53,884 bases of DNA, taken from positions 1-53,884 of the forward strand of contig CANRID010000013.1 of NCBI GenBank assembly GCA_947630665.1. The letters are read 5' to 3'. Shown here in pieces: positions 6,170-11,273 of this stretch (position 1 is the first letter of the stretch; each line of letters opens with the position of its first letter). This DNA is from an uncultured Bacteroidales bacterium (GTDB taxonomy: Bacteria; Bacteroidota; Bacteroidia; Bacteroidales; UBA932). Made by a program: the position numbers and the translations under genes. The notes beneath the pieces were generated by a model. That model was not told where the DNA came from. It saw only the letters and a program-made list of their open reading frames with translations, and did no database searches.

Positions 6170-7000
6170 CTAAAAAAGATGGTAGTTCCGTAATCTTTTT
6201 TCCAACTCTTTCTCTTTGCCTGCACAAACCGCATTTACCAATGCGTGGAAACGGGGGCTATGGTTATGATGCACCAAATGGCATAATTCGTGAACGATTA
6301 CGAAATCGGCCAGATCTTCCGGCAATTCTATCAAATGGATATTCAGATTCAGATTTCCGCGGACGGAGCAACTGCCCCAATTCGACCGGTTGTTTTTTAA
6401 AGCGATCTTCTTATAGTCAAACCATCTGTCTGCCGGCCCCCGGCAATCTTTGTTTCTCCCTTTGGAAGGAACCGGCTCCAGCAAGGCCTTATCTTCTATA
6501 GAGGCGATTATCCCGCAAAGGACACCGGCCAATTTTTCCACTTTCGGAAAAAGCAATTCCTTCGCTTCCTTTCTCAAAGCACGCAGATATCCCTCCTTTA
6601 AGGCACTCCCCTGAGCCGAACCGCAGGCCGGCAATTCATCCCAATGGCGAGGATACAATATTTCATATCTGTCGGGATACCTGCATGTTTTTATAAGATT
6701 GGGGTCCTGATTCTCAGGCGCATAATCGAATACGATCTTCCGCCCTATCGTTTGGATTTCCACTCCCCTCCCGAAACTCTGTCCGGTTGCGATGCGCTTT
6801 TGAAGCTGTTTCTGCCGGATTTTTACGATCTCCTCCACTTTACTGTCCACAAATTTCTGCGCCTGGGCATACGGTACGAAAAAAGGCATCGAGACCCTGA
6901 TTCCCCTAACCGGACTGATATTTATTTTCAGGGTTTTGCTTTTCAGTCTTTTAACGTACAGGATTTCACCTAAAACAGGATGAACAATCGTCTTCTCCAC
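6170..7000 (-). CDS. YgjP-type (DUF45) zinc metallopeptidase
   Basis: A 276-residue protein of the YgjP/DUF45 family, related to SprT and M48 enzymes. The C-terminus has HELCHLVHHNHSPRFHALV: H237 and H241 form the HExxH zinc site with E238 as the catalytic base, and the later HSPRFH supplies the third ligand region. NRSNWGSCS before it is another family signature. There is no signal peptide, so it is cytoplasmic. It starts 12 bp after the CMD-cupin stop on the same strand and is probably the last gene of the flavodoxin-led operon, although its family is usually encoded elsewhere. Substrates are unknown. Confidence 0.85.
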   Translation of the reverse strand: MEKTIVHPVLGEILYVKRLKSKTLKINISPVRGIRVSMPFFVPYAQAQKFVDSKVEEIVKIRQKQLQKRIATGQSFGRGVEIQTIGRKIVFDYAPENQDPNLIKTCRYPDRYEILYPRHWDELPACGSAQGSALKEGYLRALRKEAKELLFPKVEKLAGVLCGIIASIEDKALLEPVPSKGRNKDCRGPADRWFDYKKIALKNNRSNWGSCSVRGNLNLNIHLIELPEDLADFVIVHELCHLVHHNHSPRFHALVNAVCAGKEKELEKRLRNYHLF

Positions 7001-7012
7001 CTCTACAGGCTC

Positions 7013-7840
7013 CTATCTGGCTATATTGTCGTACTGCTCGTCCGTTACGGGTTCGAGCCACTCGTTGGAGGCGTTCTCCCCGGGAATCTCGAAAGCCAGG
7101 TGTGCGAACCAACTGTCTGCCGCAGCGCCGTGCCAATGTTTCACGTTTGCGGGAATATGGATGACCGTGCCCGGCAGAATTTCCTGTGCCGGTTTGCCCT
7201 CTTCCTGATACCAGCCGCGGCCCGCCACGCCGACGAGCATCTGTCCGCCACCTTTCGTTGCACGGTGGATATGCCAGTTATTGCGGCAGCGCGGTTCAAA
7301 CGTAACGTTGGAGATTATTACCTGCTCAGTCGATATGGGTGCGAGATAACTGTTTCCTATGAAATATTTGGCATACGCCGTATTCGGCTCACCGACAGGA
7401 AAAATCATCTCGCGTTGGAAAGCCGCTTTCGCATCTTCCCCTGTCGTGTCTTCCGCCCACACGTCTTTGGCGAGCCGGAATGCCGCCCACGCTTTCGGCC
7501 AGCCTGCGTAAAATCCTATATGCGTAATGATTTCCGCAATCTCGGTGCGGGTAATGCCGTTGTTCTTAGCCGACTGAAGATGATATATCAGCGAACTGTC
7601 CGTGATGCCCTGACTGATGAGTGAAGTGATGGTTACCAGACTGCGGTCGCGCAGACCGAGTTTGTCGGTTCGGCTCCACACCTCGCCGAAGAGTACATCA
7701 TCATTGAGTTCCGCGAATTTCGGCGCGAACCCGCCCAATTGGTCGTGTCCGGCGGTCTGTACGATTTTTTCCTGTGCCATAACATTAACATTTATCATTA
7801 AACTTATTGTCAAAAATAAATAAAAATAATATCGTTTCAT
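7013..7840 (-). CDS. Exported carboxymuconolactone decarboxylase-cupin fusion
   Basis: A 275-residue protein with a signal peptide ending about MAQ at residue 23. Residues about 35-135 form a carboxymuconolactone decarboxylase-like (CMD) domain, including SLISQGITDSSLIYHLQSA and IAEIITHIGFYAGWPKAW. It lacks the AhpD CxxC pair, so it should not be a peroxidase-type member. Residues about 165-268 form a cupin with NWHIHRAT...G as motif 1 and PGTVIHIPANVKHWHGA as motif 2, supplying the metal histidines. CMD-cupin fusions are common in Bacteroidetes. The 8 bp gap to the amidohydrolase gene shows operon membership. The substrate is unknown, possibly a lactone or cyclic acid. Confidence 0.88.
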   Translation of the reverse strand: MKRYYFYLFLTISLMINVNVMAQEKIVQTAGHDQLGGFAPKFAELNDDVLFGEVWSRTDKLGLRDRSLVTITSLISQGITDSSLIYHLQSAKNNGITRTEIAEIITHIGFYAGWPKAWAAFRLAKDVWAEDTTGEDAKAAFQREMIFPVGEPNTAYAKYFIGNSYLAPISTEQVIISNVTFEPRCRNNWHIHRATKGGGQMLVGVAGRGWYQEEGKPAQEILPGTVIHIPANVKHWHGAAADSWFAHLAFEIPGENASNEWLEPVTDEQYDNIAR

Positions 7841-7848
7841 GACTGTTT

Positions 7849-9252
7849 CTATTGAATTGTATTGATAATTCTGTTGGCAGGATTCAGCGGTTTCTGGTCA
7901 GACAACACCAATGTCTTGACCATCTGCAGTGTTCCCTGTTTGTACTTTTGAAAATGCGCCGATGCTATGTGCGACCTGTATGCCTCCGCGCTGGCATAGG
8001 TTTCGAGAATCGTAATCCGGCAAGGGTTATCCTGCTCCGCCACGGCGTACATGGTCAGTACGCCCGGCTCGGTGCGCAGGGAGATTTCGCCGACTTCGGC
8101 CGCATATTTCATGTATTCCTCCAGGTATTCGGGATAAACCTCTATCTTCGACAGACGCACGATGCCGTCTGGCTGCATGGGCTGTTTGGAGCACATTCCC
8201 TGTGCCTTGTCCTTCCTCGTCTCAGGATTTGTTTGCCGGACAGACCGGCCGCCGAACAGGGCCTTCGCATTTCCTGCCATGATGTCGTCCGCATACGGTG
8301 CCGTCTGTTCGTCTTCGGCCAGCCGCGACCGCAGGCTTTTCAGCGCCTCGGTCAGGACGGCTGCCGGTTGATAAGGATAATCGGAACCGTACAGCAGATG
8401 ATCGGGCGTAGTGAGGGTCAGCAGGGATTTCACGACGTCGGGCGTCGCCCCTCCGGCAAGGTCGTAATAGAGGCGGGAGAGGTTGGCTTCCCAATCGACC
8501 GCCTGCATATAGCCTTTTGCCTGCATTGCCGGCAGAATGGCTTTCATGCGCGGGACGGCCAACGGCAAAAACGACCCGCAGTGCGGCACGACAATCCGAA
8601 GGCCGGCATAACGGGCCGGCACGTTGCGGGCAATCATATTGAGGACTGCACGCGTGGTTTCGGAAGGATATTCGTAAACGGCGAGCGGTGCGGTGGCGAT
8701 GATGTCTTCGTTTACCGGAGACGGCTTGTGCGGATGCAGGAGGATGACCGCCTTGCGCTCGTTCAGCACCGCCATCAGCGGGTCGAGCGCTTCGTCGCCT
8801 ACATACTGCCCCCGGCTGTTCGTCGCGAGCTTGATGCCGTCCGCGCCGAGCGTATCGAGTGCATAAACGGCCTCTTCGATGGCCGCCTTCACATCGGGCA
8901 GGGGCAATGAAGCGCAGAACAGGAACTTGTCGGGATAGTCGGCTTTCAGTTTTGCACAGGCTTCATTGTAACGGCGCACCGCTTTCCGGCACTCCTCCGT
9001 ATCTCCGAAATAAGGTTGGGGTGCAGGCATGGAGAGCAGACTGGTTCCGATGCCCGCCGCTTCCATGAATTTCAGGTGAGCGGATACGTCCCATTCAGGC
9101 AAAGGAAATGTTTCTTCCATGACAGCCCCATGCCTTTCGAGCAGCGCCTTGAATTCGGGCAATATATTGTGGCAATGCACATCGACAGCCTGTTGCGCCG
9201 TCGCCGTAAAAAGCGGGAACATAAACGAGAGTATAAAAATAATCCGCTTCAT
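7849..9252 (-). CDS. Exported amidohydrolase fused to an ABM domain
   Basis: I set the start at the ATG ending 9252, which has GGAG 7 bp upstream and begins MKRIIFILSFMFPLFTATAQ, a signal peptide. The longer frame to 9300 runs into the flavodoxin gene. The product has 467 residues. Residues about 20-335 are an amidohydrolase-2 (ACMSD-like) barrel: VDVHCHNILPEF opens it with HxH, IVLLHPHKPS and VPHCGSF add histidines, and LLYGSDYPY gives the final Asp. Residues about 370-465 (IVRLSKIEVYPEYLEEY through SAHFQKYKQGTL) form an antibiotic-biosynthesis-monooxygenase (ABM) domain. Family members decarboxylate or hydrolyse aromatic-derived acids, while ABM domains often oxidise quinols. The real substrate is unknown. 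Confidence 0.88.
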   Translation of the reverse strand: MKRIIFILSFMFPLFTATAQQAVDVHCHNILPEFKALLERHGAVMEETFPLPEWDVSAHLKFMEAAGIGTSLLSMPAPQPYFGDTEECRKAVRRYNEACAKLKADYPDKFLFCASLPLPDVKAAIEEAVYALDTLGADGIKLATNSRGQYVGDEALDPLMAVLNERKAVILLHPHKPSPVNEDIIATAPLAVYEYPSETTRAVLNMIARNVPARYAGLRIVVPHCGSFLPLAVPRMKAILPAMQAKGYMQAVDWEANLSRLYYDLAGGATPDVVKSLLTLTTPDHLLYGSDYPYQPAAVLTEALKSLRSRLAEDEQTAPYADDIMAGNAKALFGGRSVRQTNPETRKDKAQGMCSKQPMQPDGIVRLSKIEVYPEYLEEYMKYAAEVGEISLRTEPGVLTMYAVAEQDNPCRITILETYASAEAYRSHIASAHFQKYKQGTLQMVKTLVLSDQKPLNPANRIINTIQ

Positions 9253-9266
9253 CGGTTGTCTCCACT

Positions 9267-9827
9267 CTATTTCACGCCGGGGGCGACACGTTCTGCCCAC
9301 TGGCGGATGGACGCTTCGCCGAGACTGTTCAACAGTTTCCCTTCGGCCCAGTTCAGTTCCGGATATTCGGCTTTCAGACTTTTTACGCTGTGGTCTATTC
9401 CGCTGCCTCCCGATGTGGCAAACGGAACGATTGTCTTGCCTTTCAGGTCATGATTTTCGATGAATGTATTGATTACCCGCGGTGCGAGGTTCCACCAGAT
9501 AGGATAACCGATAAAAATGACGTCGTAAGCGGCCACGTCCAACTTTTTGCCTGCAAGGGCGGGACGCGACTTCGGATCGTTCATCTCCACCGAACTGCGC
9601 GACCGTCTGTCATTCCAATTGAGATCGGCGCTTGTGTAAGATCGGGCAGGCGTAATCGCATAGCATTCCCCGCCCGTAATGTCAGCCAGTTTTTCTGCTG
9701 CCCGGGCCGTCGTTCCCGTTGCCGAAAAATAGGCGACCAAAATACGTTTGCCGTTATTCTGTGCCATAATCTGTGTGTTTGTAATTAAAAGTGTAACAAT
9801 TGCGAATAAAAGAGTTTTTGCTTTCAT
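9267..9827 (-). CDS. Exported flavodoxin
   Basis: A 186-residue flavodoxin with a signal peptide ending about MAQ at residue 23, placing it outside the cytoplasm. YFSATGTTARAAEKLA is the FMN phosphate-binding loop, IGYPIWWNLAPRVINTF contains aromatic residues that usually flank the flavin ring, and PFATSGGSGI is the third flavin loop. It is the first gene of an operon with the amidohydrolase-ABM and CMD-cupin genes (14 bp gap to the former). Its upstream region holds a -7 box and two direct-repeat operators. Most flavodoxins are cytoplasmic electron carriers, so an exported one raises the question of how it acquires FMN and electrons. Confidence 0.9.
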   Translation of the reverse strand: MKAKTLLFAIVTLLITNTQIMAQNNGKRILVAYFSATGTTARAAEKLADITGGECYAITPARSYTSADLNWNDRRSRSSVEMNDPKSRPALAGKKLDVAAYDVIFIGYPIWWNLAPRVINTFIENHDLKGKTIVPFATSGGSGIDHSVKSLKAEYPELNWAEGKLLNSLGEASIRQWAERVAPGVK

Positions 9828-9888
9828 ATCTTCATTTCATTTCGATTTTCTTGATAAAACACATCTTCCGTTTTTCATATTCCGAATG

Positions 9889-9896
9889 CAAAAGTA
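9889..9896 (-). promoter_or_regulatory. -7 box of the flavodoxin operon
   Basis: On the minus strand this reads TACTTTTG (TAnnTTTG). It lies 61 bp before the flavodoxin ATG. No good -33 TTTG is visible. Instead the proximal copy of an AraC-type direct repeat begins exactly 22 bp upstream, as expected for a promoter that needs an activator. Confidence 0.65.
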
Positions 9897-9918
9897 GGAA
9901 GAACGTCTCGCACCGATT

Positions 9919-9935
9919 TTGCTGCGAGGCTCAAA
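9919..9935 (-). promoter_or_regulatory. Proximal AraC-type operator of the flavodoxin operon
   Basis: The plus strand reads TTGCTGCGAGGCTCAAA. It matches the copy at 9941-9957 at 15 of 17 positions, in the same orientation, with start-to-start spacing of 22 bp (about two helical turns). This fits tandem binding by the two helix-turn-helix units of an AraC dimer. Binding is inferred, not shown. Confidence 0.65.
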
Positions 9936-9940
9936 ATGCT

Positions 9941-9957
9941 TTGCTGTGCGGCTCAAA
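9941..9957 (-). promoter_or_regulatory. Distal AraC-type operator of the flavodoxin operon
   Basis: The plus strand reads TTGCTGTGCGGCTCAAA, the second direct repeat. Its last 5 bp overlap the 3' end of the AraC-type gene. A third, more diverged copy lies upstream of that gene at 10816-10830. Confidence 0.65.
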
Positions 9958-10768
9958 TCATGCTGGGTGCATAGCCGTATGTCTCCTTATAGATTTTCGA
10001 GAAATGGGAAAGATTCTTGAATCCTACATCGAAGCAGACTTCCGTTACCTTTTTCTTGCCGGATTTTATCAGGTCGTGTGCGGCCTCCAACCGCCGTTTG
10101 ATAAGCCATTTCTGTGGCGTGAGATTGCTCACTTTCGCAAAATCGCGTTTGAATGTCGCCAGACTGCGGCCGGTATAACTTGCAATGTCTTCCATCGACA
10201 AGTCATACATGTAGTTTTCGTTCAGATAATCGAGAATGTCGATTTTCCAGGGATCGACAAAATCGAACAGCGAGGCATACAGGCTCTTGTCGGTATTGAG
10301 CAGCACATAGACCCCTTCTGTCATTTTCAGTTTCAACACATCGTCGGAAGGCCGCACACCCGCATCGAAATAAGGGATCAACGACTCGAACAGACTGCGT
10401 ATGTCCGGACGGTTATTCGGCAATACCCGCAGGCTCACTTTTTCCCGTTTCGATTCCATGCGAATCTCTTTCCTGTCGAGCGTTTGATAGAACTCCCGCA
10501 AAAACGGTTTCGTAAATTTCAGCACGATGGAGCGATACGGATGCTCCGGGTCGGCATGTTTCTGCAGCCACATCCGGTTATCCCGCCGCATGAAAGCGCA
10601 CTCGCCCGGATGCAATACCGTCTTCTTTCCACGTTCCTCTATTTCCAATCCGCCGGAACACAGATAGATAAGCGTATGTTCCCGATTCTCGTGGGCACAG
10701 CCTCTATCGTCGGTGAAAAAACTTGCTATAAGGATGTTCGAGCAGTCGAACACTTCTAATCGTTCCAT
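9953..10768 (-). CDS. AraC-family transcriptional regulator
   Basis: The start at the ATG ending 10768 is chosen because AGGAG lies 7-8 bp upstream and the longer frame to 10978 runs through the promoter region with non-AraC-like sequence. The product has 271 residues. Residues 1-160 are a cupin-like sensing domain (IYLCSGGLEIEERGKK, LHPGECAFM). Residues about 170-271 hold the two helix-turn-helix units: LSMEDIASYTGRSLATFKRD, then TEVCFDVGFKNLSHFSKIYK. It sits upstream of the exported redox operon on the same strand, 125 bp away, and the repeats in that gap and upstream of its own start suggest it controls both. The inducer is unknown. Confidence 0.92.
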   Translation of the reverse strand: MERLEVFDCSNILIASFFTDDRGCAHENREHTLIYLCSGGLEIEERGKKTVLHPGECAFMRRDNRMWLQKHADPEHPYRSIVLKFTKPFLREFYQTLDRKEIRMESKREKVSLRVLPNNRPDIRSLFESLIPYFDAGVRPSDDVLKLKMTEGVYVLLNTDKSLYASLFDFVDPWKIDILDYLNENYMYDLSMEDIASYTGRSLATFKRDFAKVSNLTPQKWLIKRRLEAAHDLIKSGKKKVTEVCFDVGFKNLSHFSKIYKETYGYAPSMI

Positions 10769-10785
10769 ATCAATCTCCTTTTTTA

Positions 10786-10793
10786 CAAAAATA
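10786..10793 (-). promoter_or_regulatory. -7 box of the AraC-type gene
   Basis: Minus-strand TATTTTTG (TAnnTTTG), 17 bp before the ATG, leaving a short leader that still contains the AGGAG ribosome site. The operator copy at 10816 begins 22 bp upstream, the same distance as at the flavodoxin promoter. Confidence 0.6.
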
Positions 10794-10815
10794 AGGATTT
10801 GTATGAATCCGTGTT

Positions 10816-10830
10816 TTGTTGTACGGCTCA
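10816..10830 (-). promoter_or_regulatory. AraC-type operator upstream of the regulator gene
   Basis: The plus strand reads TTGTTGTACGGCTCA, matching the distal flavodoxin-operon repeat at 13 of 15 positions. Only one good copy is visible here, which suggests weaker binding or a different outcome, such as autoregulation. Confidence 0.55.
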
Positions 10831-10922
10831 TTTTTACAATTGGAGCATCGGGCGGCCCGGATATCGGAGAAGAAAATAAAAGCGGCGGCGCACGGGGCAA
10901 AGCCAAAAAATTCCAATAATAG

Positions 10923-10952
10923 TTGCAGGTAAAAAAATAATCCCTATCTTTG
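10923..10952 (+). promoter_or_regulatory. Promoter of rpsO
   Basis: TTG (10923-10925) and TATCTTTG (10945-10952) are separated by 19 bp, close to the Bacteroidetes vegetative promoter consensus. The ATG follows 45 bp after the -7 box. Confidence 0.7.
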
Positions 10953-10997
10953 CACTCCCCGATTTTGGGACAAAACAATTAATAATCGCTTAGCAAA

Positions 10998-11273
10998 ATG
11001 TCAGAATATTTAGCATCGGACAAAAAGCAAGAGATTTTCGGTAAATACGGAAAGTCTAATAAGGACACCGGCTCACCTGAAAGCCAGATAGCCCTATTTT
11101 CCTACCGTATCGCTCACCTTTCCGAACATCTGAAAAACAACAAAAAGGACTTTGGCACCCAAAGATCCCTGCTCAGATTGGTAGGTAAAAGGCGTCGTCT
11201 TCTGGATTATCTCAAATCCAAAGACATCGAGAGATACAGGAATATTGTGAAGGCGTTGAACCTTCGTAAATAA
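10998..11273 (+). CDS. rpsO: 30S ribosomal protein S15
   Basis: A 91-residue S15, about the usual length, with the family signature around TGSPESQIALFSYRIAHLSEHL and the RRRLLDYLK helix near the C-terminus. S15 binds 16S rRNA early in assembly of the 30S platform. The gene has its own promoter and is followed closely by a strong terminator, so it appears monocistronic. In many bacteria rpsO is directly followed by pnp. Here a META-domain gene on the opposite strand lies between them. Confidence 0.97.
   Translation: MSEYLASDKKQEIFGKYGKSNKDTGSPESQIALFSYRIAHLSEHLKNNKKDFGTQRSLLRLVGKRRRLLDYLKSKDIERYRNIVKALNLRK

Follow-up and report, generated by a model that had tools for sequence, protein, structure and literature searches.

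The window, a 53,884-nucleotide stretch of DNA (contig CANRID010000013.1, positions 1 to 53,884) from an uncultured Bacteroidales bacterium of the UBA932 lineage, carried an AraC-family regulator gene (araC hereafter) and a three-gene operon headed by a flavodoxin gene (Table 1); because araC and the flavodoxin operon both lay on the minus strand, the sites described below were read functionally on that strand. The araC product contained a C-terminal double HTH (Pfam HTH_18 at 1.2e-18 and HTH_AraC at 5.8e-14, both over cut-off) plus ExsA_N (47.2 bits vs. a cut-off of 27) as a separate N-terminal regulatory domain, and its predicted structure had a pLDDT of 90.5 with a beta-rich N-terminal part. 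A YgjP-like metallopeptidase gene (6170-7000) came after the operon on the same strand, outside the cassette shared with relatives (see below).

Table 1. Features of the araC-flavodoxin locus (positions in the window)
Feature	Position	Strand	Remark
CMD (carboxymuconolactone-decarboxylase) + cupin protein, operon gene 3	7013..7840	-	cupin below Pfam cut-off
Amidohydrolase fused to ABM (antibiotic biosynthesis monooxygenase) domain, operon gene 2	7849..9252	-	
Flavodoxin (Flavodoxin_4), operon gene 1	9267..9827	-	Pfam; apparent signal peptide by eye
-7-like box TACTTTTG, flavodoxin operon	9889..9896	-	no -33 TTTG
Eroded hairpin	9905..9930	-	5' arm inside proximal half-site, 7/8 pairs, weak T tail
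Proximal half-site TGAGCCTCGCAGCAA, flavodoxin operon	9919..9933 (9933-9919 as read)	-	22 bp from -7 box
Distal half-site TGAGCCGCACAGCAA, flavodoxin operon	9941..9955 (9955-9941 as read)	-	5' TGA = araC stop codon
araC-family regulator gene, 271 aa	9953..10768	-	ExsA_N-type N-terminal domain + AraC-type double HTH
-7-like box TATTTTTG, araC promoter	10786..10793	-	no -33 TTTG
Single half-site TGAGCCGTACAACAA, araC promoter	10816..10830 (10830-10816 as read)	-	22 bp from -7 box

The initial annotation had proposed three copies of an AraC-type operator at two promoters, and all three were recovered with the sequence and coordinates claimed (plus-strand starts 9919, 9941, and 10816). They shared the minus-strand form TGAGCCnnnnRRCAA; the two copies of the flavodoxin operon were repeated with a 22-bp period, and the distal one overlapped the 3' end of araC, the stop codon TGA serving as its bases 1-3. 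The gap between half-site and -7 box was exactly 22 bp in both promoters, likewise as claimed, giving composite matches (half-site, 22 bp, TAnnTTTG) at 9889-9933 and 10786-10830, which were the only two zero-mismatch composite matches in the genome. A consensus derived from these copies had three exact matches in 2,240,499 bp, all in the window, and at ≤3 mismatches it had 19 matches within the window (9.0 expected; 0 of 100 shuffles reached 19). Weaker matches elsewhere in the genome look like background, since 34 matches with ≤2 mismatches were obtained vs. 27 with the reversed control; a wider regulon sought with the composite at ≤3 mismatches was not supported (43 matches vs. 50 in the reversed control). 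The suggested genome scan for further sites thus returned the two named promoters as exact matches but no additional member above background, and the regulon in the source genome would consist of the flavodoxin-operon and araC promoters.

The same arrangement was then scored beside araC orthologs in named genomes, using the best 80 of 360 loci (58-93% identity, 764 kb in total). Half-sites with ≤3 mismatches lay exactly 22 bp from TAnnTTTG in 127 instances and exactly 44 bp from it in 62, and any other spacing up to 60 bp gave at most 6; exact half-sites at these best 80 loci gave 34 at 22 bp, 7 at 44 bp, and 1 at each of two other spacings. The 44-bp peak is the 22-bp distance plus one 22-bp period, i.e., the distal copy. 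Thirty permuted-consensus controls gave 0-2 matches at 22 bp, and one of them gave 27 matches at a single spacing other than 22, perhaps because it contained the real motif at an offset. With a relaxed filter that tolerated ≤2 mismatches in the half-site and one in the box at spacings of 20-23, sites were present at 64/80 araC promoters, 68/81 adjacent target regions, and 5/1649 opposite-strand windows, and absent from 16/80 araC promoters and 13/81 adjacent regions (best 80 of 360 loci, with or without the window). These loci were related to one another, forming 32 clusters at 80% araC identity, of which 26 had a strict target site, 24 a tandem, and 21 an araC-promoter site. The half-site, the 22-bp period, and the 22-bp box distance therefore recurred beside araC orthologs, i.e., the repeats were kept in relatives having the system, and they are almost certainly regulator landing sites kept in many gut bacteria.

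A strict filter retained 129 promoters (53 araC and 76 target promoters) in 81 loci (the best 80 of 360 plus the window), with both promoter classes in 45/81 loci and neither in 5/81. The two classes differed in the distal half-site (≤4/11 mismatches), which accompanied 69/76 target promoters vs. 4/53 araC promoters. A hidden distal half-site at the araC promoters was sought and rejected: the distal position was at random level (6-11 mismatches) in 49/53, the other 4 having it, and no column from -70 to -43 rose above about 0.33 bits. One half-site at araC vs. two at the operon, as seen in the window, is by these counts a conserved difference. An A-rich stretch occupied -42 to -39 of araC promoters (L086-L165), just upstream of the single half-site; in target promoters, the second half-site lies farther upstream. 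The extended form of the half-site at target promoters was about TTTGAGCYnnnCARCAAA, and the layout agreed with that of AraC-type operators, in which two-block half-sites of some 17 bp are directly repeated at close to 21 bp beside the -35/-33 region: the period here was 22 bp, and the distance to the -7 box was fixed at 22 bp. The housekeeping promoter consensus of Bacteroidota consists of TAnnTTTG at -7 and TTTG at -33. The absence of a -33 TTTG claimed for the two window promoters held true and was general: the -7 element was present and the -33 element absent in the window pair and in all 129 promoters, and in 0/76 target and 0/53 araC promoters did a TTTG (or TTG) have its end 19-24 bp ahead of the box.

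Across 393 genomes of the order Bacteroidales, the AraC protein was detected at E ≤1e-50 in 28. The tandem composite (≤1 mismatch) had 27 matches in 17/393 genomes (0 with the reversed-pattern control); all 17 were among the 28 AraC-bearing genomes, none of the 365 AraC-less genomes had the tandem, and 11/28 AraC-bearing genomes had no tandem match at ≤1 mismatch. When the spacing was left free (7-37 bp), 25 exact matches were obtained in the 393 genomes vs. 2 in the control: 9 of the 25 fell at 22, their 9 genomes all belonging to the 28 with AraC, and the other 16 were scattered with ≤2 per spacing. The regulator as traced by these searches is spread over several families of gut Bacteroidales.

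The regulator most likely switches on the neighboring redox-detoxification genes and itself. Class-II activation plus autoregulation by the AraC protein of 9953-10768 through the half-sites is a reading that we hold with high confidence. Two regulator subunits would occupy one face of the DNA at the tandem half-sites, separated by a single 22-bp period, or roughly two helical turns; the proximal half-site, fixed 22 bp upstream of TAnnTTTG, would adjoin the would-be -33 position, and because no -33 element is found there, the regulator would stand in for it; the single half-site in the same register at the araC promoter would provide autoregulation. Class-II activation is proposed because the rigid register and the missing -33 are its prediction. 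An AraC protein activating its neighbor and controlling itself, as initially put forward, stayed the best reading of this anatomy; binding by the AraC protein, activation rather than repression, dimer use, and the signal are inferred.

Three other accounts of the half-sites were weighed. The AraC protein might mainly repress from the same operator and leave it, or change its grip, upon induction: AraC-family promoters under autoregulation can be repressed, binding beside the core promoter could hinder polymerase, and the araC promoters without a second half-site may respond differently from the target promoters. The register of the sites was nevertheless rigid, 22 bp upstream of the -7 box, and repression would not need the lack of a -33 TTTG seen in 129/129 promoters, which makes this account improbable. 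Less probable still is an account in which some other regulator (e.g., a hybrid two-component protein) binds the motif and araC is a passenger. The hybrid two-component systems (HTCS) of Bacteroides, a genus of the same order, are large sensor-kinase hybrids in the membrane that are dedicated to polysaccharides; their DNA-binding domain is of the AraC type, and direct-repeat motifs leaving about 21 bp between tandem sites have been predicted for them (PMC3878776). Against this, AraC was present in 17/17 tandem-operator genomes with the tandem in 0/365 AraC-less genomes, half-sites also preceded the araC gene itself, and the recognition-helix residues were identical throughout 80/80 AraC orthologs. 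Unlike an HTCS, the window AraC would be a 271-aa one-component regulator of redox-type genes, and no sensor kinase or receiver domain was detected in it (Pfam, E 0.001). Chance or drift, i.e., a functionless local duplication, would fit the presence of only three copies in the source genome and the near-control frequency of two-mismatch matches, but the motif, period, and register were conserved across orthologs, and the spacing peak plus the tandem co-occurrence exclude it in practice.

The proximal half-site was also part of a potential hairpin. In the window, the hairpin had one mismatch and folded no better than shuffles (z -0.92), and the terminator scan gave no minus-strand terminator in window 9700-11000; a plus-strand candidate at 10809-10826, overlapping the araC half-site, was discarded as uninformative (shuffles averaged 1.8 vs. 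one found). In relatives, a strong stem between proximal half-site and spacer (score ≥7) was formed in 42/76 target promoters, 1/53 araC promoters, and 6% of shuffled target spacers. The proximal half-site doubled as the 5' arm of a terminator-like hairpin in 38 of the 73 distinct target promoters, with two geometries (28 long-type and 10 short-type), neither of which occurred at full stem in any of 51 distinct araC promoters; a G+C-rich stem followed by a T run, as in intrinsic terminators, was seen in 38 of the 73 distinct targets and not in the other 35. Fold z values against shuffles were -7.2 for L097, -4.7 for L103, and -5.5 for L113, and moderate (about -2.7) for L121 and L086. The long-type N4 columns, left free by the operator, covaried (T-A, A-T, C-G, and G-U forms), and all four pairs were formed in 26/73 distinct sequences vs. 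a mean of 12.8 and a maximum of 21 in 2000 shuffles that ignored the relatedness of sequences; short-type covariation was not above such shuffles (10 observed, a value reached by 506/2000).

The hairpin was distributed over 7/26 target-site clusters (araC at 80% identity), and well-supported branches of the araC tree required at least four changes of the long label and at least two of the short label. It was found in 39/69 target promoters having a co-directional upstream gene and also in 3/5 having a minus-strand upstream ORF, of which L094 is probably an ORF-call artefact, L158 is ambiguous, and L118 looks real: in L118:1751-3312, a strong operator hairpin was located downstream of a divergent 477-codon ORF, which would leave it no upstream message to end. 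Among the 54 target promoters less than 250 bp from araC, 20, including that of the window, had the araC stop codon as the TGA of the distal half-site.

These overlaps raise the possibility, which we rate slightly below an even chance, that the operator is an element of about 60 bp with several overlapping readings: stop codon, DNA operator, and terminator arm of the araC message. The proximal half-site of many relatives would then have two roles, as operator in the DNA and, in the transcript, as the source of the 5' arm and some of the loop of an RNA terminator ending the araC message, the terminator sitting within the spacer of the promoter that the AraC protein would activate; araC transcription would cross the operator in each round, could clear it, and would end just short of the -7 box, and such crossing would couple regulator synthesis to target firing. 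Alternatively, the inverted arm beside the proximal half-site in relatives would be a third, inverted operator half-site instead of a terminator 3' arm, a reading that is disfavored and unlikely. The inverted arm did mirror half-site positions 1-12 in the 28 long-type promoters, and the divergent ORF of L118 argues against a terminator there. The inverted copies were selected by pairing and are informative at unpaired positions only, where the operator-invariant T at position 0 was kept in 0/28, A13 in 7, and A14 in 13; moreover, the short type paired just 8 positions before its T run, and the tails were T-rich in the two hairpin types (0.67 and 0.82 vs. 0.30-0.38 in other promoters). If the terminator reading is true, the operator-terminator overlap in relatives would provide a compact coupling of regulator to target.

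Regulon content was assessed from 192 predicted proteins whose genes follow target promoters, the cluster representatives being named by Pfam. These proteins included (i) four large clusters, aldo/keto reductases (46), flavodoxins (45), hexapeptide acetyltransferases (40), and CMD-cupin proteins (21); (ii) smaller clusters of ABM fusions with flavin reductase or amidohydrolase (7) and of SDR (7); and (iii) the smallest groups, RibD_C (2), alpha/beta hydrolase (2), and iron-type alcohol dehydrogenase (1). A few operons had unrelated genes downstream (L128; L100, where DUF3737 and a multi-spanning protein resembling a transporter were encoded), and some had no gene call. When tandem operators were taken from the DNA pattern alone, 25/27 were re-located; gene 1 or 2 matched the regulon clusters in 21/25, of which five did so weakly (<30% identity) and seven had already been part of the first set, and of the remaining four, L219 resembled an FMN reductase and L201 an alcohol dehydrogenase by eye, with no fit for L204 and L221. 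The predicted regulon is thus mostly composed of redox-type enzymes. A twin-arginine motif was seen by eye in 43/46 aldo/keto reductase N-termini (cluster c1, e.g., L092:2537-3688), the twin-arginine score of one scanned reductase being 20.1 bits vs. a cut-off of 22.7; these starts suggest export of cofactor-loaded enzyme, and the operon genes as a whole point to a system, in part exported, that would counter oxidants or reactive carbonyls.

Because enzymes of redox and carbonyl type, many of them carrying export signals, make up most of the regulon, the signal is probably an oxidant or electrophile, which the AraC protein perhaps senses via its N-terminal domain; Cys24 and Cys57 are candidate sensing residues. 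Both cysteines were invariant in 80/80 aligned AraC orthologs (best 80 of 360; 41-93% identity to the window protein), and His26 and His31 were conserved in 75/80 and 76/80, respectively. A thiol switch in the window protein would be plausible by analogy, since in E. coli RclR, which senses HOCl and belongs to the AraC family, a disulfide linking two cysteines of the N-terminal part activates the protein (PMC7464077). The window AraC and RclR have in common two N-terminal cysteines and redox targets, the role of the cysteines here being suggested by conservation. They differ in their target genes, and the window AraC was not RclR itself (NF040475 at 22.7 bits vs. a cut-off of 400, over the HTH part only).

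E. coli AraC binds tandem direct half-sites about two turns apart at araBAD I1-I2, the proximal one by -35, and controls its own gene. The present locus resembled it in the tandem direct half-sites, the proximal one adjoining -35/-33, and in the proposed self-controlling activator, but it differed in the half-site, in the TAnnTTTG promoter without -33, in the single half-site of the araC promoter, and in having no sugar operon. When aldehydes are present, YqhC, another AraC-family protein of E. coli, raises the adjacent aldehyde-reductase genes yqhD/dkgA. The present regulon likewise included aldo/keto reductases and one iron-type alcohol dehydrogenase but differed in the operator, the export signals, and the flavodoxin, acetyltransferase, and CMD-cupin genes. 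Within the openly licensed PubMed Central literature, no description of the motif or regulon was recognized, which is weak evidence; in their accessible parts, PMC12274486 reports an ABM protein in the glyoxal response of Pseudomonas with AraC not mentioned, and PMC10434189 concerns an iron stimulon. The type of wiring is familiar and the set of regulator, operator, and regulon appears new, the less usual aspects being the exact register, the split into one or two half-sites, and the apparent doubling of the operator as terminator stem in relatives. A motif, a base-pair-exact register, and a gene set are hereby supplied for a one-component, probably stress-sensing regulator, and they make AraC-type activation of -33-less promoters open to direct testing in this phylum, the araC promoter with its one half-site and the operon promoter with two offering a built-in comparison.

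The extent of the cassette was delimited by DNA similarity to relatives. In L086-L088 and L090-L093 combined, this similarity began at about 7026 and extended to 10833-10835; in L089 it stopped at 10803. The shared segment covered the stretch between the CMD gene and a point a few bases past the araC half-site, with the edge there in seven of eight loci. Cassette pieces were 84-90% identical to L086-L089, and rpsO, which was also near araC in L086-L088 (one other genus), was 71-72% identical. The AraC protein (E ≤1e-20) was not found in the 36 other searched genomes of the genus, many of them incomplete, and families were mixed in the araC tree. Horizontal transfer of the cassette together with its operators, with an operator as its edge, is suggested by these three observations, namely, cassette identity above that of rpsO, absence from the 36 congeners, and the mixed families. 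In two genomes, G294 and G373, the AraC system is, by gene and operator counts, expanded: each encoded three AraC paralogs, accompanied by five and four tandem operators, respectively.
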